From the NCBI GenBank assembly GCA_021804455.1, contig JAJZHT010000003.1, positions 9,389-19,809 on the forward strand: a stretch of 10,421 nt of DNA, read 5' to 3'. The position numbers and the translations under genes were made by a program. Origin of the DNA: Pseudomonadota bacterium (lineage in GTDB: Bacteria > Pseudomonadota > Alphaproteobacteria > Paracaedibacterales > CAIULA01). The first letter of the stretch is position 1, and each line of letters opens with the position of its first letter. Below, in pieces: positions 1 to 9,081 of this stretch. Below the pieces are notes generated by a model. That model searched no databases, was not told where the DNA came from, and was given only the letters and a program-made list of their open reading frames with translations.

Positions 1-270
1 TTTTTCAGCCCTCTCTAAACTATCAGAGAGTTTTTGTAAAGCCGTTTGCCGAGACGTCTCACATTCTTTAGCCAAATCATACAACCAGGCCGGAGCTTTT
101 GGCGGCAAAAGAATCGCCACATGCTCCACAAACGGTTTATGGGTGTAATCAAAAGATTCCGCATGGGGCAGATCCACCAACTGGGTCGCGCTTCGGTAAG
201 CTAAGCTGGCGACACAACTTTTCCCGGAACCACGGCTTATATTTTTAGTGGTTAAATGATAATGTGCCAT
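1..270 (-). CDS. MobA/MobL-family (TraA-like, MOBQ) conjugative relaxase, N-terminal part
   Basis: Relaxases of this family nick the transferred strand at oriT and stay covalently attached through a tyrosine near the N-terminus. Only the first 90 codons are in the window; the gene continues past the left edge. Visible family features are the opening MAHYHLTTKNISR, then SGKSCVASLAYRSA, whose Tyr25 corresponds to the catalytic tyrosine of RSF1010 MobA, and then DYTHK..VEHVAILLPPKAPAW, typical of the MobA/MobL domain. The metal-binding histidine motif and any helicase region lie outside the window, so it cannot be told whether the protein is a short MobA or a long TraA relaxase-helicase. The start at 268-270 gives the conserved N-terminus directly. 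It is transcribed divergently from traC/traD, as in Agrobacterium Ti plasmids, with the probable oriT between. Confidence 0.9.
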   Translation of the reverse strand, partial: MAHYHLTTKNISRGSGKSCVASLAYRSATQLVDLPHAESFDYTHKPFVEHVAILLPPKAPAWLYDLAKECETSRQTALQKLSDSLERAEK

Positions 271-497: not shown

Positions 498-839
498 ATG
501 ACGTTACGTTTAGAAAAACTCGATACGAAAATTGAAAAACTTTTGCAACGCCGAGAAAAAATTCAACAAGATTATAGAGAGGCTCTGCTTAAACTGATGT
601 TAAATTCCCTGGAAAAAGGGCCCCCTATTCAGACGCTAGCCGGGATCCTTTTGCAGGCAGAGGATCTTATGAAAGAATTTCCCCATAAACAGGAGGTTTG
701 GCAAGAAGCCGGACGGAAATTTCTTTCCCGATCCTTTACAAGAAAAACTGCAAAGGATCCATGCCCGAATCAGGCGTTTTCATCGCCACAAAATTTACGT
801 CTTGAAAAAGAAGAAAATGGATGCCATGAGTTTCCGTAA
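498..839 (+). CDS. traC: TraC-like conjugal transfer accessory protein
   Basis: The protein has 113 residues with a highly charged N-terminal helix (about residues 3-35, heptad-like LEKLDTKIEKLLQRREKIQQ), followed by a Leu-rich segment. This fits the small TraC family encoded next to traD in Ti-like transfer regions, where these proteins help form the relaxosome at oriT. An AAGGA at 486-490 lies 7 bases before the ATG. The last 35 or so residues, from about FLSRSFTRK, are poor in helix-forming charge and unlike the first part. The +1 frame over the same bases reads as a charged helix that runs into TraD. Either the C-terminus is simply variable or a frameshift has occurred near position 720. 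The name rests on context and a coiled-coil N-terminus rather than on a diagnostic motif. Confidence 0.6.
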   Translation: MTLRLEKLDTKIEKLLQRREKIQQDYREALLKLMLNSLEKGPPIQTLAGILLQAEDLMKEFPHKQEVWQEAGRKFLSRSFTRKTAKDPCPNQAFSSPQNLRLEKEENGCHEFP

Positions 840-1083
840 AGCGCGCACCCGAACCCTGATTCAGGTGGGTGGACTGGTTGAAAAAGCCGGCCTTTTGCAA
901 GCCCTCAACATTCAATTGGGGGATGATTTGCAACAAAACAGTGAGTGTTTTGAGAATACGGCCATTTTGATGGGGGCCTTGATCGATGCGTGTAAAGCTC
1001 TTCATACAAACGACCGTCACGCCCAAAAAATCCTGTGGGCTGAAGTGGGGAAAAAGATGCTGAAGCAACGAGACAAAACATAA
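817..1083 (+). CDS. traD: TraD-like conjugal transfer protein
   Basis: This small protein carries the family signature RKARTRTLIQVGGLVEKAGLL, followed by a LMGALIDACKAL segment, as in the Ti-plasmid TraD family (not the large F-plasmid coupling protein of the same name). It is presumed to help relaxosome function. The ATG at 817 gives 88 residues and overlaps the end of traC by 23 bases in the +1 frame, a typical translational-coupling arrangement. A TTG at 802 would add five residues (LKKKK), and the frame stays open back to 673. AAAAAGAAG just before the ATG is only a weak ribosome site. In Ti plasmids traG, the coupling protein, follows; here it is absent and an unrelated small secreted protein comes next, which suggests a shortened or rearranged transfer region. 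Confidence 0.78.
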   Translation: MDAMSFRKARTRTLIQVGGLVEKAGLLQALNIQLGDDLQQNSECFENTAILMGALIDACKALHTNDRHAQKILWAEVGKKMLKQRDKT

Positions 1084-1674: not shown

Positions 1675-1724
1675 TTTGATTTGTAATCAGTAGGTCGAGA
1701 GTTCGAGTCCCTCAACCGGCACCA
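1675..1724 (+). other. tRNA-Thr(TGT) 3' fragment: probable att site / right boundary of the integrated element
   Basis: The sequence contains an anticodon loop TTTGTAA (1680-1686, anticodon TGT at 1682-1684), a 3' anticodon stem TCAGT, a variable loop AGGTC, a T arm GAGAG-TTCGAGT-CCCTC, a 3' acceptor strand AACCGGC, discriminator A and CCA at 1722-1724. Everything 5' of the anticodon stem is missing: the bases before 1675 do not form a D arm or the expected GCCGGTT strand, and the 5' stem pairs only partly. One T-stem pair is A-C mismatched. Integrases of islands and ICEs recombine in the 3' half of tRNA genes and leave such a fragment at the far end. Its orientation places the element to its left, where the tra genes are. 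Confidence 0.75.
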
Positions 1725-2559: not shown

Positions 2560-3036
2560 ATGAGAAAAATTTTGGTTGTAACAGCTGTTTCAGCTGTTAG
2601 TTTATTAGTTTCTGGTTGTGCTCCGAAATTGGGCGGCAGTGATTATGACGCTCGCACGGTGGGCGAGATCAGTCAAACACTTCGTGGTACAGTTCTTTCA
2701 GTGCGCCCTATTATGATTAATGCCTCAGACAACAGTCAGTTTGGCGCAGGGGCTGGTATTGGTGGTTTATCAGGAGCCTTGTTGGGTTCCCAAATTGGTG
2801 GGGGTAAGGCCCGTTATGTGACAGGCACGCTTGGAGCTTTGGGAGGTGCTGCTGCAGGCCATTTAATCCAACAAAAAGCCACAGAACAAGAAGGAAGAGA
2901 ATACCAAGTTCAGCTGGACCGTGGTGATATTATTACCATCAGCCAGGGGGCTGAGCCGATGATTGCTTCTGGCCAACGTGTTTTGGTAATCCAAAGTAAG
3001 AGCCGTAGTCGTATTGTTCCGGATTCAACGCGCTAG
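2560..3036 (+). CDS. outer-membrane lipoprotein, SlyB / 17-kDa surface antigen-like, glycine-zipper
   Basis: This 158-residue protein has a lipoprotein signal peptide. After MRK and a hydrophobic stretch, the lipobox LVSGC puts the lipid-modified cysteine at residue 20. Residues about 62-105 form a glycine-zipper segment (GAGAGIGGLSGALLGSQIGG, then GTLGALGGAAAGHLI), the membrane-associated hairpin of the SlyB/PcpY and rickettsial 17-kDa antigen family. The C-terminal part (YQVQLDRGDIITISQGAEP...GQRVLVIQ) is the conserved small beta domain of these proteins. They reside in the outer membrane and act in envelope integrity; the precise role here is not shown. AGGA at 2553-2556 is only 3 bases before the ATG. 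It is a single-gene unit with its own promoter and terminator. Confidence 0.88.
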   Translation: MRKILVVTAVSAVSLLVSGCAPKLGGSDYDARTVGEISQTLRGTVLSVRPIMINASDNSQFGAGAGIGGLSGALLGSQIGGGKARYVTGTLGALGGAAAGHLIQQKATEQEGREYQVQLDRGDIITISQGAEPMIASGQRVLVIQSKSRSRIVPDSTR

Positions 3037-4457: not shown

Positions 4458-5618
4458 CTATCCCCTTTTTAAAAGTTGTTGTATATGGAACGCAATAACC
4501 TGTTCTTCATTAATACTCATTAAAAAAGCCTTAATTTGGCTGGTAGGTTTTGTCAGAATAGAAGCATGAGAAGTATTCGCCTTTTCATCCATCTCCAGAC
4601 CTAACCACGTCAAACGATCGGCTATTTTTTTTCTGACAAGGGAAGAGTTTTCTCCAATACCTCCTGAAAAGGTAATCGCATCAACCCCCCCTAAAACACC
4701 TATTAAACTGAATAAATTTTTAACCGCACTGTGGCAAAAAATATTAAGAACACGATTGAAAAGGTCTGAATCATATTCTATATCCCGTAGGTCACTGCTG
4801 ATTCCTGACAGGCCTCGAATTCCGGAGTCATGATAGAGCAGATTTTCGATTTCTTGGTAAGACATTTTATAATGATTGACCATAAATAACAAAGCTCCTG
4901 GGTCGAGACTTCCCGATCGTGTGCTCATAATTAGACCGTCTAAAGTAGAGAATCCCATGGAGGTATCAAAGCTTTTACCATTCTTAAGAGCCGCCATACT
5001 GCATCCGCTTCCCAGATGAATAGCAACCACTTTATTAGGAAATTCCGTAGGGCATCGTTGTTTCAAATGCTGAACCACGGATTCATAGGCAATCCCGTGA
5101 AATCCATACTTAATCACCCCCTCCTCAGCCAATCTTTGAGGAAGGCCAAACACTCGGTGATGATAAGGAATCGATTGATGAAAGGCTGTATCAAAATGGC
5201 AGAATTGAGGAATGTTAGGGAAAGAAGACCGAAAAAATTTTAGATAATCCAACGCATGTCTTTGATGAAGAGGGGCTAGAATCGATAAATTTTCTATATC
5301 TTGGATCACTTGGTCATCAGCTTGGCTACAGCTGTGATATTTCAAACCACCATGGACAATTCTATGACCCATACCGATGATATCTTGGGTTTCTTGACAT
5401 TGCTGTAAGGTTTTTAGGATTAAAGTCGTAATATCTTTGTAATCCTTAAAAGAATCGTTTGAAAGTTTTACGTCATCTTGATAGAAGGTTAGTTTTTTTT
5501 TATCAAAATGTATTTCAACTTTGGCTTTTAACAAAGATTGTGTGGGACAATCAGCGTCCAATACACTCCATTTAACCGTGGATGAGCCTGCATTGATAAT
5601 TAAAAGCGCTTTTCCCAT
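4458..5618 (-). CDS. ackA: acetate kinase (acetate/acyl kinase) AckA
   Basis: The enzyme interconverts acetyl phosphate plus ADP and acetate plus ATP, and so makes ATP from the product of the phosphotransacetylase encoded just upstream. The 386 residues are of normal length. Conserved ASKHA-kinase motifs are seen in order: INAGSSTVKW (Asn9), GHRIVHGG (Arg86), DTAFH (Asp143), YGFHG (His174), HLGSGCS, TRSGSLDPG (Arg234; SLDP where DIDP or DLDP is common), FSGGIGEN and INEEQVIA near the end. The start codon overlaps the Pta stop codon by one base (TAATG), so translation is coupled. If Pta is not made, this start may be used less and the kinase would lack its partner. The substrate could be a longer acyl phosphate, given the hydratase and fabI in the operon. 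Confidence 0.94.
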   Translation of the reverse strand: MGKALLIINAGSSTVKWSVLDADCPTQSLLKAKVEIHFDKKKLTFYQDDVKLSNDSFKDYKDITTLILKTLQQCQETQDIIGMGHRIVHGGLKYHSCSQADDQVIQDIENLSILAPLHQRHALDYLKFFRSSFPNIPQFCHFDTAFHQSIPYHHRVFGLPQRLAEEGVIKYGFHGIAYESVVQHLKQRCPTEFPNKVVAIHLGSGCSMAALKNGKSFDTSMGFSTLDGLIMSTRSGSLDPGALLFMVNHYKMSYQEIENLLYHDSGIRGLSGISSDLRDIEYDSDLFNRVLNIFCHSAVKNLFSLIGVLGGVDAITFSGGIGENSSLVRKKIADRLTWLGLEMDEKANTSHASILTKPTSQIKAFLMSINEEQVIAFHIQQLLKRG

Positions 5619-6610
5619 TAGTTATAGATTTCTCCCATTTTAAAAGGCGGAAGCAGAAAAGATTTATGGTGAATATAACACAAAGATAGTAAGCAAGAAG
5701 CCTTTCGGGAAATAAGATTATCTTCAGCCCTGCTGGTAAGCACAATAGGGATTTTGGCGCCTAAGACAATACCTATTCCTTGAATATTGGATAAAAACCG
5801 CATCTGCTTGTATAAGATATTTCCAGCCTCAATATTAGGCACAACCAAGATATCAGCATCGCCTGCAACCTCAGAGTTGATGGATTTCAGTTCCGCGGCT
5901 TTTTTAGAAATAGCATTATCAAAGGCAAGAGGACCATCTAAGACTCCTCCTCTGATTTGGCCTCTTTCCGCCATCTTGCATAAAGCTGTGGCATCAAGAG
6001 TTGAAGGTAATTTTTGGGTTACAGTCTCAACAGCGGACAAAATAGCCACCTTAGGAACCTGTCCAGAATGAACGCAACGAAATAGATCGATGGCATTTTG
6101 AATGATATCTTTTTTAGCCAACAGATCAGGATCGATATTGATAGCCACATCTGTTAAAAATAAAGGTTTATGGTATTGGGGGGCAAACAAAACGAAAACA
6201 TGGCTCATTCTACGTTCAGTATGTAAAGTTGGCTTTGCGATAACAGCCTGCATCAATTCATCTGTATGCAAATTCCCTTTAATAATCATATCAACAGCAC
6301 TTTGTTCTGCTAAATCGGCGGCTATTTCAGCCGATTGGTGGCTGTGGGATGTTGAAATAATTTGATAAGAATCAAGGGGGATGGATGATTCTTCAGCAGC
6401 TTTTCTGATTTTTTCTTGAGGACCAATGAAAATGGGATTGATAATACCATCAAGAGCAGCTTCATGAGCAGCCTCTAAAGAGAGTTGATCGACTGCATGG
6501 ACAAGCGCAGTTTTAATTGCGGGTAAACCTTTAGTTGTATTAATAAAATGGTTGTAATATTTAGCTGTTGTGTTTTCGATAACTTCGATTTGAGGTAAGT
6601 CTGTTGGTTC
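5618..6610 (-). CDS. phosphate acetyl/acyltransferase (Pta) half of a bifunctional hydratase-Pta gene, cut off by an in-frame TAG
   Basis: Family members transfer the acyl group of acyl-CoA to phosphate. The frame is open from the codon after the TAG at 6611-6613 to the stop at 5618-5620, 330 sense codons. It reads as a continuous Pta domain: KTALVHAVDQLSLEAAHEAA, GIINPIFIGPQEKI, STSHSHQSAE, then MIIKGNLHTDELM, ERRMSHVF, ILSAVETV, STLDATALCKMAERG, GPLAFDNAIS, ADILVVPNIEAGN and PIVLTSRAED. No ATG, GTG or TTG occurs in frame until 6287-6289, 107 codons in; starting there would give 223 residues and lose the N-terminal third of the domain. Alphaproteobacterial homologues are single proteins of about 470 residues with an N-terminal MaoC domain, and this frame is collinear with that layout. 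The gene is therefore a recent nonsense mutant, a read-through gene, or a split gene with a rare start codon. Confidence 0.85.
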   Translation of the reverse strand, partial: EPTDLPQIEVIENTTAKYYNHFINTTKGLPAIKTALVHAVDQLSLEAAHEAALDGIINPIFIGPQEKIRKAAEESSIPLDSYQIISTSHSHQSAEIAADLAEQSAVDMIIKGNLHTDELMQAVIAKPTLHTERRMSHVFVLFAPQYHKPLFLTDVAINIDPDLLAKKDIIQNAIDLFRCVHSGQVPKVAILSAVETVTQKLPSTLDATALCKMAERGQIRGGVLDGPLAFDNAISKKAAELKSINSEVAGDADILVVPNIEAGNILYKQMRFLSNIQGIGIVLGAKIPIVLTSRAEDNLISRKASCLLSLCYIHHKSFLLPPFKMGEIYN

Positions 6611-7051
6611 CTAGGAAATTTTTTGGGTGGGAACAATCACAAGGGCTTCTCCTGTCATCACTTCTTGGCCCAGTTGATTGATGCAGGTACAAGAAAGTCT
6701 GGCGCGATTTCCAACCTCTATTTTTTCTTTAACCGTAACAGTGATGCTAACTTTATCATCCACCCCTATGGGCTTTAAAAATTTTAATGTTTGCTCTAGA
6801 TAAATGGTTCCAGGACCGGGCAGGATCGTACCCAAAATAGTGGAAATAAGTGTTCCGCCCCACATTCCATGACCTACAATTTTTTTAAAAATATCTTTCT
6901 TGGCGAAGCTTTCATCAAGATGAGCAGGGTTAATATCGCCTGTTACAACGGCAAATATCTCAATATCCTGTTTTGTCAAAGTTTTTGTAATTGTGGCAGA
7001 ATCACCAACTTTTAGTTCATCAAAGACTTTGTTTTGAAGGGGTGTTGGCAT
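6611..7051 (-). CDS. MaoC-like (R)-specific enoyl-CoA hydratase; N-terminal half of the hydratase-Pta gene
   Basis: The 146-residue hot-dog-fold domain hydrates enoyl-CoA to (R)-3-hydroxyacyl-CoA or the reverse. The hydratase motif GDINPAHLDESFA carries the catalytic Asp39 and His44, followed by IVGHGMWGG and the substrate-side PGPGTIYLEQTLKFLKPI. The end (EVMTGEALVIVPTQKIS) is where the bifunctional family has its linker, and the stop TAG at 6611-6613 is in frame with the Pta domain that follows. The start at 7049-7051 has no strong Shine-Dalgarno sequence. A TATAAT on the minus strand (7069-7074) lies about 18 bases upstream, without a clear -35 box. As a free-standing protein it would resemble PhaJ-type hydratases and could still be active. 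Confidence 0.88.
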   Translation of the reverse strand: MPTPLQNKVFDELKVGDSATITKTLTKQDIEIFAVVTGDINPAHLDESFAKKDIFKKIVGHGMWGGTLISTILGTILPGPGTIYLEQTLKFLKPIGVDDKVSITVTVKEKIEVGNRARLSCTCINQLGQEVMTGEALVIVPTQKIS

Positions 7052-7583: not shown

Positions 7584-8984
7584 TTAGCTGTACATACTTT
7601 CCCAAGGTTCTTTTGTAACGTCCTTTAGACTGTCCTTAAAAACTTTTTCAATCATAGAACCATCAATTGTAACAGTTTTTCCTTTATACGTTTCAGTATC
7701 AGAAAGAATAGGCTGTATAATACGATCTACAATGGTGTAAATACCTCGAACACCCGTTCCTAGATTAAACGATTTTTCAACAATCGCCGGATAACAACTT
7801 TCATCAAATTGTAACTGAATTTTATAGCCTAATTTCAGTAAAATTTTATTTTGTTGAAGAGGAGAGATAATGGGTGAGTTCAAAATTTGTAAGATTTTTT
7901 CTTTTGTAAGGGGACTCAAAAAAATCATTTCGCCAAAACGGCCCAAAAGTTCTGGTTTAAAACCAATATTAATGAAATCGCTTATGGTATGGGGACCTTT
8001 TTTAGGGGGGAGTTCGGAAAAGGATCCTCCCCCAATAAATAAAATATTTTGCGTATTTACAGTATACATCTTTTCGTCGCCGAGGTTTTTAACGCGAACA
8101 ATAACCTCTTTTCCTTCCATCAGTTTTAAAAGTTCTGATTGAACATCACTTCCTCCGATATCTCGGTAACTGCTGGTTGTTTTGGCGGCAACTTTGTCGA
8201 TTTCATCCAAAAAGACTATCCCTTTTTCAGCGTCTCCAACGCGGTAACAACATGATTTTAACAATCCATGAATTACCGAGTCTGCGCTGTCACCCATATA
8301 ACCGGTTCGTGAAAAAGTACTAACATCTCCTGTAAAAAAAGGGCGGTTTAAAAGTTTGGCTAGATGCTGAACGCTGGCTGTTTTACCACTGCCTGTTGGG
8401 CCCACCAGTAAAAGATTCATTTTTTTGATGGGGGCGATATTGAGGCCTGTTTTTTGAATAAGTTGATTGATGCGCAGACTTTGATAATGACGATCAACAT
8501 AAACTGCTAGGGCTTCCATCGCCTCTGGCTCACCGACAATTCTTTGGTTAAGATAATCTTGAATCACTTGGGGTGAAGGGGAAAAAATTTCGCTACCTTC
8601 TTCTTGCTCTTTTGGAACGGAAGATGTCGTCAATAATAAATTTTCATCTTGATTGGGAACAAGCCAACTTTTTATAAGATCCGTAATCTGCTCGACCTTC
8701 TCAAGAGATATTTCTCCTTCGGAGCGCGCGTTAAGTACTTGTTCAAAGAAAACAGGTAGAGTAAGGTCTGCTTCGTATTGTTTGACAAAGCCTTTGACAC
8801 AAGACTTAAGTTCGTTATCATCGGATATTTTTTGAATTTTCTCAAAGAGTTGACGATAAGCTTTCATCCCGTAAGATGGCAAAGGCAAAAGGGAGTCTTG
8901 GCCCTCGCTCGCAAAGACCAAAGGACTTAATACCAACCCCTTAAGAAATAAAAATAAAAAAGCATTCCTGATACAGATTATCAT
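7584..8984 (-). CDS. ClpX-like AAA+ ATPase with N-terminal signal peptide
   Basis: The 466 residues contain a ClpX-type AAA+ core. The box IVGEPEAMEALAVYVDRHY (from residue 149) resembles ClpX VIGQ...AVYNHY. The Walker A is GPTGSGKT (195-202), the pore-loop-1 motif GYMG (228-231), and the Walker B IVFLDEIDK (256-264). VQSELLKLMEG and the sensor FIGGGSF (317-323) follow, then the arginine finger in PELLGR (Arg349) and sensor 2 GTGVRG (Arg413). Three things differ from ClpX. There is no Cys4 zinc domain. Instead residues 1-25 form a signal peptide (basic Arg6, hydrophobic core, VFA cleavage site) and a helical region of about 120 residues precedes the core. The segment between FIGGGSF and PELLGR is about 20 residues where ClpX has about 50, so the IGF loop that docks ClpP is missing. 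AGGAG 7 bases before the ATG is a good ribosome site. It probably unfolds or remodels proteins without ClpP, outside the cytosol or in a host; the place of action is inferred. Confidence 0.88.
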   Translation of the reverse strand: MIICIRNAFLFLFLKGLVLSPLVFASEGQDSLLPLPSYGMKAYRQLFEKIQKISDDNELKSCVKGFVKQYEADLTLPVFFEQVLNARSEGEISLEKVEQITDLIKSWLVPNQDENLLLTTSSVPKEQEEGSEIFSPSPQVIQDYLNQRIVGEPEAMEALAVYVDRHYQSLRINQLIQKTGLNIAPIKKMNLLLVGPTGSGKTASVQHLAKLLNRPFFTGDVSTFSRTGYMGDSADSVIHGLLKSCCYRVGDAEKGIVFLDEIDKVAAKTTSSYRDIGGSDVQSELLKLMEGKEVIVRVKNLGDEKMYTVNTQNILFIGGGSFSELPPKKGPHTISDFINIGFKPELLGRFGEMIFLSPLTKEKILQILNSPIISPLQQNKILLKLGYKIQLQFDESCYPAIVEKSFNLGTGVRGIYTIVDRIIQPILSDTETYKGKTVTIDGSMIEKVFKDSLKDVTKEPWESMYS

Positions 8985-9081
8985 GATTGGACTCCTTTAA
9001 GTGAAACGATAAGCCCCAATTGACTATCCTTTGATCAGATAGGGACAAAAAGTTTACAGAAAATTAAAGGAGGTTAAAAAA

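Follow-up and report, generated by a model that had tools for sequence, protein, structure and literature searches.

A ClpX-type AAA+ ATPase with signal-peptide features and a C-terminal HbYX motif in Paracaedibacterales

The C-terminal HbYX motif, a hydrophobic residue followed by Tyr and any last residue, has been described as the docking and gate-opening element of PAN and of three Rpt subunits, and Mpa is described as docking by a variant of it (PMC12352868; PMC11475706). HslU also docks to its own protease via its C-terminus, and is described as having no HbYX motif (PMC11475706). The gene analyzed here lies in a window of 10,421 nucleotides, which is the whole stretch of DNA that was studied. 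Its product resembles PAN, Rpt1-6 and Mpa in being an AAA+ unfoldase whose flexible C-terminal tail ends in HbYX, and in its proposed mode of working. It is unlike them in that the core is of the ClpX type, export is predicted and no proteasome was found in the genomes of the order that were searched. HslU is an AAA+ unfoldase of the same broad group, but the window protein ends in MYS. ClpX (NF003745 / TIGR00382) is similar in its large and small AAA+ domains, Walker A and B motifs, pore loop, arginine finger and sensor 2. Unlike ClpX, the window protein has neither a zinc domain nor an IGF loop, and it has signal-peptide features and the HbYX tail.

The nearest case among the papers listed by searches of open-licence PubMed Central is LegC4 of Legionella, an amoeba-dwelling bacterium, an effector acting on host proteasome regulation. 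It differs in binding PA28alpha, and the account of it describes neither an ATPase nor HbYX docking (PMC10321654). The titles and abstracts listed by these searches describe neither an exported ClpX nor a bacterial ATPase that targets host proteasomes by HbYX, and ClpX and proteasome have 0 occurrences in the main text of the paper on a Paracaedibacter-like symbiont of Bodo (PMC8163844).

Gene, start site and ATPase core

The open reading frame extends on the minus strand from an ATG at 8984-8982 to a stop at 7586-7584 and encodes 466 amino acids; the coordinates and strand given in the earlier, sequence-only reading are thus correct. The features of the gene are listed below with the evidence for each.

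7584..8984, minus strand: whole gene, 466 aa, ClpX-like AAA+ ATPase with putative signal peptide and HbYX tail (open reading frame, Pfam AAA_2, fold)
8991..8998, minus strand: Shine-Dalgarno sequence AAAGGAGT, 6 nt before the ATG (sequence)
8910..8984, minus strand: predicted Sec-type signal peptide, residues 1-25, MIICIRNAFLFLFLKGLVLSPLVFA/SEG (sequence, homologues, heuristic counts)
8661..8867, minus strand: helical bundle at the position of the zinc domain, residues 40-108, no significant fold match (AlphaFold2, Foldseek)
8574..8660, minus strand: linker, residues 109-137, mostly of low confidence (AlphaFold2)
7920..8573, minus strand: AAA+ large domain, residues 138-355 (Pfam, AlphaFold2, fold matches)
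8379..8402, minus strand: Walker A, GPTGSGKT, residues 195-202 (sequence motif)
8292..8303, minus strand: pore-1 loop, GYMG, residues 228-231 (sequence motif, family alignment)
8196..8219, minus strand: Walker B, IVFLDEID, residues 256-263 (sequence motif, family alignment)
7956..8018, minus strand: shortened segment at the position of the IGF (ClpP-docking) loop, residues 323-343 (comparison of the interval from sensor 1 to the arginine finger)
7938..7940, minus strand: arginine finger, R349 (sequence motif, family alignment)
7638..7919, minus strand: AAA+ small domain, residues 356-449, with sensor-2 R413 at 7746-7748 (AlphaFold2, alignment)
7587..7637, minus strand: flexible C-terminal tail, residues 450-466, 17 residues (low pLDDT)
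7587..7595, minus strand: HbYX motif Met464-Tyr465-Ser466, followed by TAA (sequence, conservation, controls)

A shortened or mis-called start was ruled out for the window gene because the strong ribosome site AAAGGAGT precedes its ATG. Homologues beginning after residue 40 with a better ribosome site had been named as evidence that would speak against the N-terminus; inspection of the window sequence revealed no ribosome site upstream of Met40. Among the relatives, P0005 (on a contig of 1,924 bases) starts inside the linker and has no signal, and the given starts of P0229, P0249 and P0250 apparently lie inside the signal. A Shine-Dalgarno-like core is present ahead of the first Met, which is not always the true start, in 23 of 36 family loci and absent in 13.

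Elsewhere in the window, a single reading frame at 5618-7051 (minus strand) comprises domains of the MaoC-like (6611-7051) and phosphate acetyltransferase (5618-6610) types. An in-frame TAG lies between them at 6611-6613, and position 6289 has the first common start codon for the phosphate acetyltransferase part. The start of a MobA/MobL relaxase (1-270, minus strand) and two small TraD-like ORFs (498-839 and 802-1083, plus strand, the first below the Pfam cutoff) make positions 1-1083 read as the remains or the edge of a conjugative element. A stretch at about 1681-1722 (plus strand) resembles the 3′ half of a tRNA, was not called by ARAGORN and could be an integration site. The plus strand also encodes a small protein (1098-1505) that matches no Pfam family and whose N-terminus is signal-like, and a 17-kDa-antigen-like glycine-zipper protein (2560-3036).

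By its motifs the window protein is a complete ClpX-type AAA+ ATPase. Walker A, Walker B, the pore loop, the arginine finger and sensor 2 were all found, as had been read from the sequence, and are largely conserved in 37 aligned family rows (Walker A Lys in 37/37, Walker B Asp in 35 and Glu in 34, arginine finger in 34, sensor-2 Arg in 33). AlphaFold2 analysis of the whole protein (mean pLDDT 85.9) produced an N-terminal helix, a helical domain at residues 40-108 that was for the most part modelled with confidence, a linker of low confidence, a ClpX fold and a tail again of low confidence, and the best 50 PDB fold matches listed were all ClpX or ClpXP entries. Both curated ClpX cutoffs were missed: the scores were 226.2 bits against 359 (NCBIfam, the match beginning at model position 50) and 200.3 against 370.75. 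The HslU score of 133.7 bits is also below its cutoff of 362.45, and the tail, EPWESMYS, is not that of HslU. Four models of the proteasome-activating nucleotidase type gave 21.6-26.4 bits against cutoffs of 500-750.

The replacement of the zinc domain by a helical region, proposed earlier, was borne out: none of the 14 Pfam matches of the window protein at E 0.01 is to the zinc-domain family, the AlphaFold2 model has a helical domain in its place, and paired CxxC near the N-terminus occurs in 0/80 family members. Modelled alone, the N-domain gave a weaker prediction (mean pLDDT 67.5). A Foldseek search with this domain returned no significant match, and with a best E of only 0.27 its fold allows no assignment of function. 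The domain is predicted to be all-helical, in place of the coiled coil and OB domain that characterize proteasomal ATPases, and an OB family is likewise not among the 14 Pfam matches of the window protein at E 0.01. The family is best described as ClpX-type unfoldases that probably act in the manner of proteasomal ATPases but lie outside their family.

The interval from sensor 1 to the arginine finger is 31 aa in the window protein versus 58-59 aa in the seven ClpX proteins that could be scored, including that of the same genome (one of eight was unmatched). Scoring was possible for 34 of 40 non-redundant family members, and 33 of these have 31-48 aa; the exception, L044, has 92 aa and yet no IGF. 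The letters IGF in the window protein and in P0002 occur only at GFKPEL before the arginine finger and do not mark a loop. The shortening noted from the sequence was therefore confirmed, and the loop has been lost in 34/34 scored members. Cytosolic ClpP was rejected as a partner because this docking loop is absent.

The C-terminal HbYX motif

The HbYX motif was absent from the sequence-only reading. We compared 80 family members, consisting of 36 genome loci and 44 protein-database entries with some duplicates, and found HbYX at the C-terminus of 65 (26/36 and 39/44, respectively). It is present in 32 of the 40 members that are non-redundant at 60% identity. A hydrophobic-(F/W)-X ending occurs instead in 7 of the 80 and 4 of the 40. 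Conservation is localized: entropy is 1.17 and 1.46 bits at positions -2 and -3, and 2.43-3.84 bits at the others of the last 25. The third-last residue is mostly Met (29/40), and the last varies among S, L, M, I, V and T.

The motif is rare in controls. Of 299 ClpX-type proteins that the same database searches had returned, 1 has it, as do 11 of 724 ORFs from 0.8 Mb of one genome, G030. Only 2 of the 117 signal-peptide-like ORFs in this 0.8 Mb carry it, both family members, as do 9 of the other 607. With only two constrained residues, HbYX arises by chance at about 1% (9/722 non-family ORFs of G030); the published rate for bacteria is 0.72%, with 2.5% expected at random (PMC11475706). If the members were independent draws, the chance of reaching 32/40 would be vanishingly small whichever of these background rates is taken, a calculation which is only indicative given the relatedness of the members.

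The seven members with Phe or Trp for Tyr are L038, L044, L056, L057, P0122, P0124 and P0236; the ending of L044 may be due to chance, since this is a shortened copy. Neither form is present in L039, L042, both L053 genes, L055, L061, P0246 and P0257. One of the L053 genes is shortened, P0246 is apparently cut, and the end of L039 differs from that of the near-identical P0006, which carries HbYX.

Docking to a proteasome is counted against by the 15 of 80 members without strict HbYX (including the seven with Phe or Trp) and by the third-last residue. Single tail peptides acting on the human 20S proteasome are reported to need Tyr at that position, not Leu or Ile, where the family mostly has Met, and to prefer Phe or Tyr at the second-last; with multivalent activators, other residues at the third-last position and Phe at the second-last are reported to be tolerated (PMC8907193). 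Six tails on a hexameric ring would make it multivalent.

It could be proposed that the hydrophobic-Tyr-X ending is some other tail signal, for example a tag for outer-membrane export, a ligand of the PDZ type or an element of ring assembly. The brevity of the motif and its Met bias at -3, which is narrower than HbYX requires, would agree with this. However, the ending is absent from the other 115 of the 117 signal-peptide-like ORFs of G030, the one genome considered, and a general export tag is unsupported when the only two carriers are family members. In PDZ ligands the last residue usually has to be a fixed hydrophobic one, and that of the family is variable. Six complete HslU tails end in FIL, a different motif. 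We therefore regard another kind of tail signal as improbable.

Signal peptide, distribution and phylogeny

The N-terminus of the window protein has a positive n-region, a hydrophobic core and a VFA-S site, which are Sec signal features, and the N-termini of many homologues are signal-like and continue into an acidic, often proline-rich stretch. By a home-made rule, 68 of the 80 members and 37 of the 40 representatives have a signal-like N-terminus, with 12 of the 80 failing it; the same rule selected 9 of 299 ClpX-type proteins and 117 of the 724 ORFs of G030. The signal peptide recognized earlier in this one protein can thus be regarded, at the level of a heuristic rule, as a trait of the family.

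The sequence-only reading had also offered an uncleaved N-terminal anchor with the ATPase facing the cytosol, as in FtsH. In its favour, a single Lys breaks the hydrophobic core of the window segment, and cleavage is only predicted. Against it, the residues ahead of the hydrophobic core carry a higher net charge than those following it in 38 of 40 representatives, so that the positive n-region and the acidic stretch put the C-terminal part outside. A second membrane segment was found in 0/40 representatives, cleavage-like small-residue sites recur among the homologues, and there is no docking loop for cytosolic ClpP. The charge distribution and the lack of a second membrane segment therefore predict export; judged from the sequences, export of the ATPase is the better reading and a cytosolic anchor is very improbable.

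A search of 58 genomes revealed ClpX-like genes additional to those of the housekeeping ClpX and HslU. Supplemented by a profile search in 17 genomes that had been doubtful, it located the family in 30 of 42 genomes of the order, a tally that includes broken copies in G037, G039 and G001. By family code, copies are present in 6/8 (f1), 2/3 (f2), 6/6 (f3), 0/2 (f4), 0/4 (f5), 5/7 (f6), 0/1 (f7) and 11/11 (f8) genomes; G007 and G017 lack a copy, and their completeness is only 72% and 70%. Two or three copies occur in at least nine genomes. With a threshold of E 1e-95 the profile, built from the window's order, detected 4 of 385 genomes in a sample of the class, each of them a member of this order, and a single one of 398 in a sample of the phylum, the window's own; this strict threshold may miss distant members, and three candidates per genome were scored. 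A first scan of genome contigs returned no relative, a second contig scan and a viral scan returned 80 distant ClpX-like loci each, and the matches of a plasmid search were all below 60% identity. By database names the carriers include Candidatus Odyssella thessalonicensis and Candidatus Paracaedibacter symbiosus, where the database name is only 'AAA family ATPase'. Candidatus Odyssella and Candidatus Paracaedibacter are endosymbionts of amoebae, and the carriers appear to live inside single-celled hosts.

The phylogeny proposed earlier as a check was based on 283 columns and 74 rows: 39 family members (one of the 40 representatives, without a recognized Walker A, was left out), 14 ClpX of the order, 12 other ClpX and 9 HslU. 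The family stands apart from HslU and outside the clade of the order's ClpX, each with 100% support. A recent duplication of the ClpX of the same genome is unsupported, the family lying outside that clade. The unity of the family itself has 18% support and several members are on long branches, which meet; for this reason one origin is neither favoured nor dismissed, and the family may have a single or a multiple origin.

Some copies are broken or shortened: L036 in G001, where a contig end cuts the gene and the frame is broken, L278 in G039, L281 in G037 and L044 in G016. A further ClpX-like match, G038:C84:4054-4788, contains four stop codons. The in-frame stops in G039 and G037, the frame break in G001 and the shortened copies in G016 would be expected if the gene were a decaying ClpX paralogue with no specific role. 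Such decay is scarcely likely, as the ATPase motifs and the tail are kept across subgroups only about 20-30% identical and at least nine genomes carry multiple copies.

Possible partners and mode of action

Matches to PF00227 were found in 37 of 40 genomes of the order, the full-size ones being HslV-sized frames of 183-217 aa; G007 has a further partial match of 51 positions. There is usually one such frame per genome. G029 and G031 have two and G005 has three, with HslU-like frames beside them where listed. The PF00227 search identified no 20S proteasome set among the 40 genomes, and a 20S partner would therefore be that of the host.

Analysis of 211 neighbouring ORFs revealed no partner gene recurring across the family, and no conserved partner operon is evident. 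The widest neighbour cluster, an ABC-transporter-like gene, occurs in seven genomes, and hslU and hslV recur in five. In subgroup f3 the family genes lie divergently beside hslVU in five genomes (L041, L043, L052, L053 and L061), a position which could hint at another partner.

The sequence-only reading assumed a periplasm lacking ATP. This premise is doubtful, as it need not hold in a bacterium with an ATP/ADP translocase, and the window genome has a member of that family (656.9 bits). The translocase is present in 27 of the 30 family-positive genomes, with only a weak match in G024, G031 and G041. Host ATP may thus reach the periplasm, which makes the main rival explanation an unfoldase or disaggregase working there, free or anchored, on host ATP entering via the outer membrane and with its tail docked to a periplasmic partner. 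Such a role would account for the signal peptide without a second export step. It would leave the HbYX nature of the tail unexplained, it finds no recurring partner gene, and the only proteasome-like proteases found are the HslV-sized frames; we consider it unlikely. The titles and abstracts listed by the searches of open-licence PubMed Central contain no report of a periplasmic AAA+ machine on host ATP.

TolC-type families are present in 38 and secretin families in 37 of 40 genomes of the order, and no link of either to the family genes was found. The secretin of the window genome was set aside as an outer-membrane route, as it sits among unrelated genes in the ORF list. A precedent for passage from the periplasm into the host is PRP1, a 63-kDa protein of Holospora obtusa. 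It also belongs to an intracellular alphaproteobacterium, has a putative signal peptide and is reported to be periplasmic and later to occur in the host nucleus (PMC9866348). It differs in being a novel sequence with a DNA-binding domain, in not being described as an ATPase in that account and in having its putative signal reported near the C-terminus (PMC9866348).

The earlier interpretation is supported in part: the signal-like N-terminus and the loss of the loop recur in the family, and an action on host proteins would agree with the HbYX tail. Export, formation of a hexamer, release past the outer membrane, proteasome binding and the substrates are inferred. Our preferred reading, to which we give an even chance, is that of an exported unfoldase capping the host 20S proteasome. 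The gene product would be a hexameric unfoldase derived from ClpX and exported by Sec in an endosymbiotic alphaproteobacterium. In its descent from ClpX the zinc domain and the ClpP-docking loop would have disappeared, and the helical N-domain and the flexible HbYX tail would have been gained. After passage through the inner membrane it would be released, past the outer membrane, into the host cell, where ATP is available. There the ring would insert its HbYX tails into the pockets of the alpha ring of the host 20S proteasome. The new helical N-domain probably chooses the substrates, and the ring would unfold the chosen proteins and feed them to the proteasome as a bacterial stand-in for the 19S cap. 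The loss of a bacterial protease dock and the gain of an export signal and of a proteasome dock form a coherent whole.

It is an evenly balanced question whether host 20S and bacterial motor make up a hybrid protease through which the symbiont destroys proteins of its choice independently of ubiquitin. If so, the microbe would give the motor and the host the protease of a hybrid degradation machine, and endosymbionts would have a direct, ubiquitin-independent route to steer host proteolysis. The family would also provide a natural test of HbYX alone on a foreign AAA+ ring. If the tail docks as proposed, this would be a new way for a microbe to direct the destruction of host proteins.
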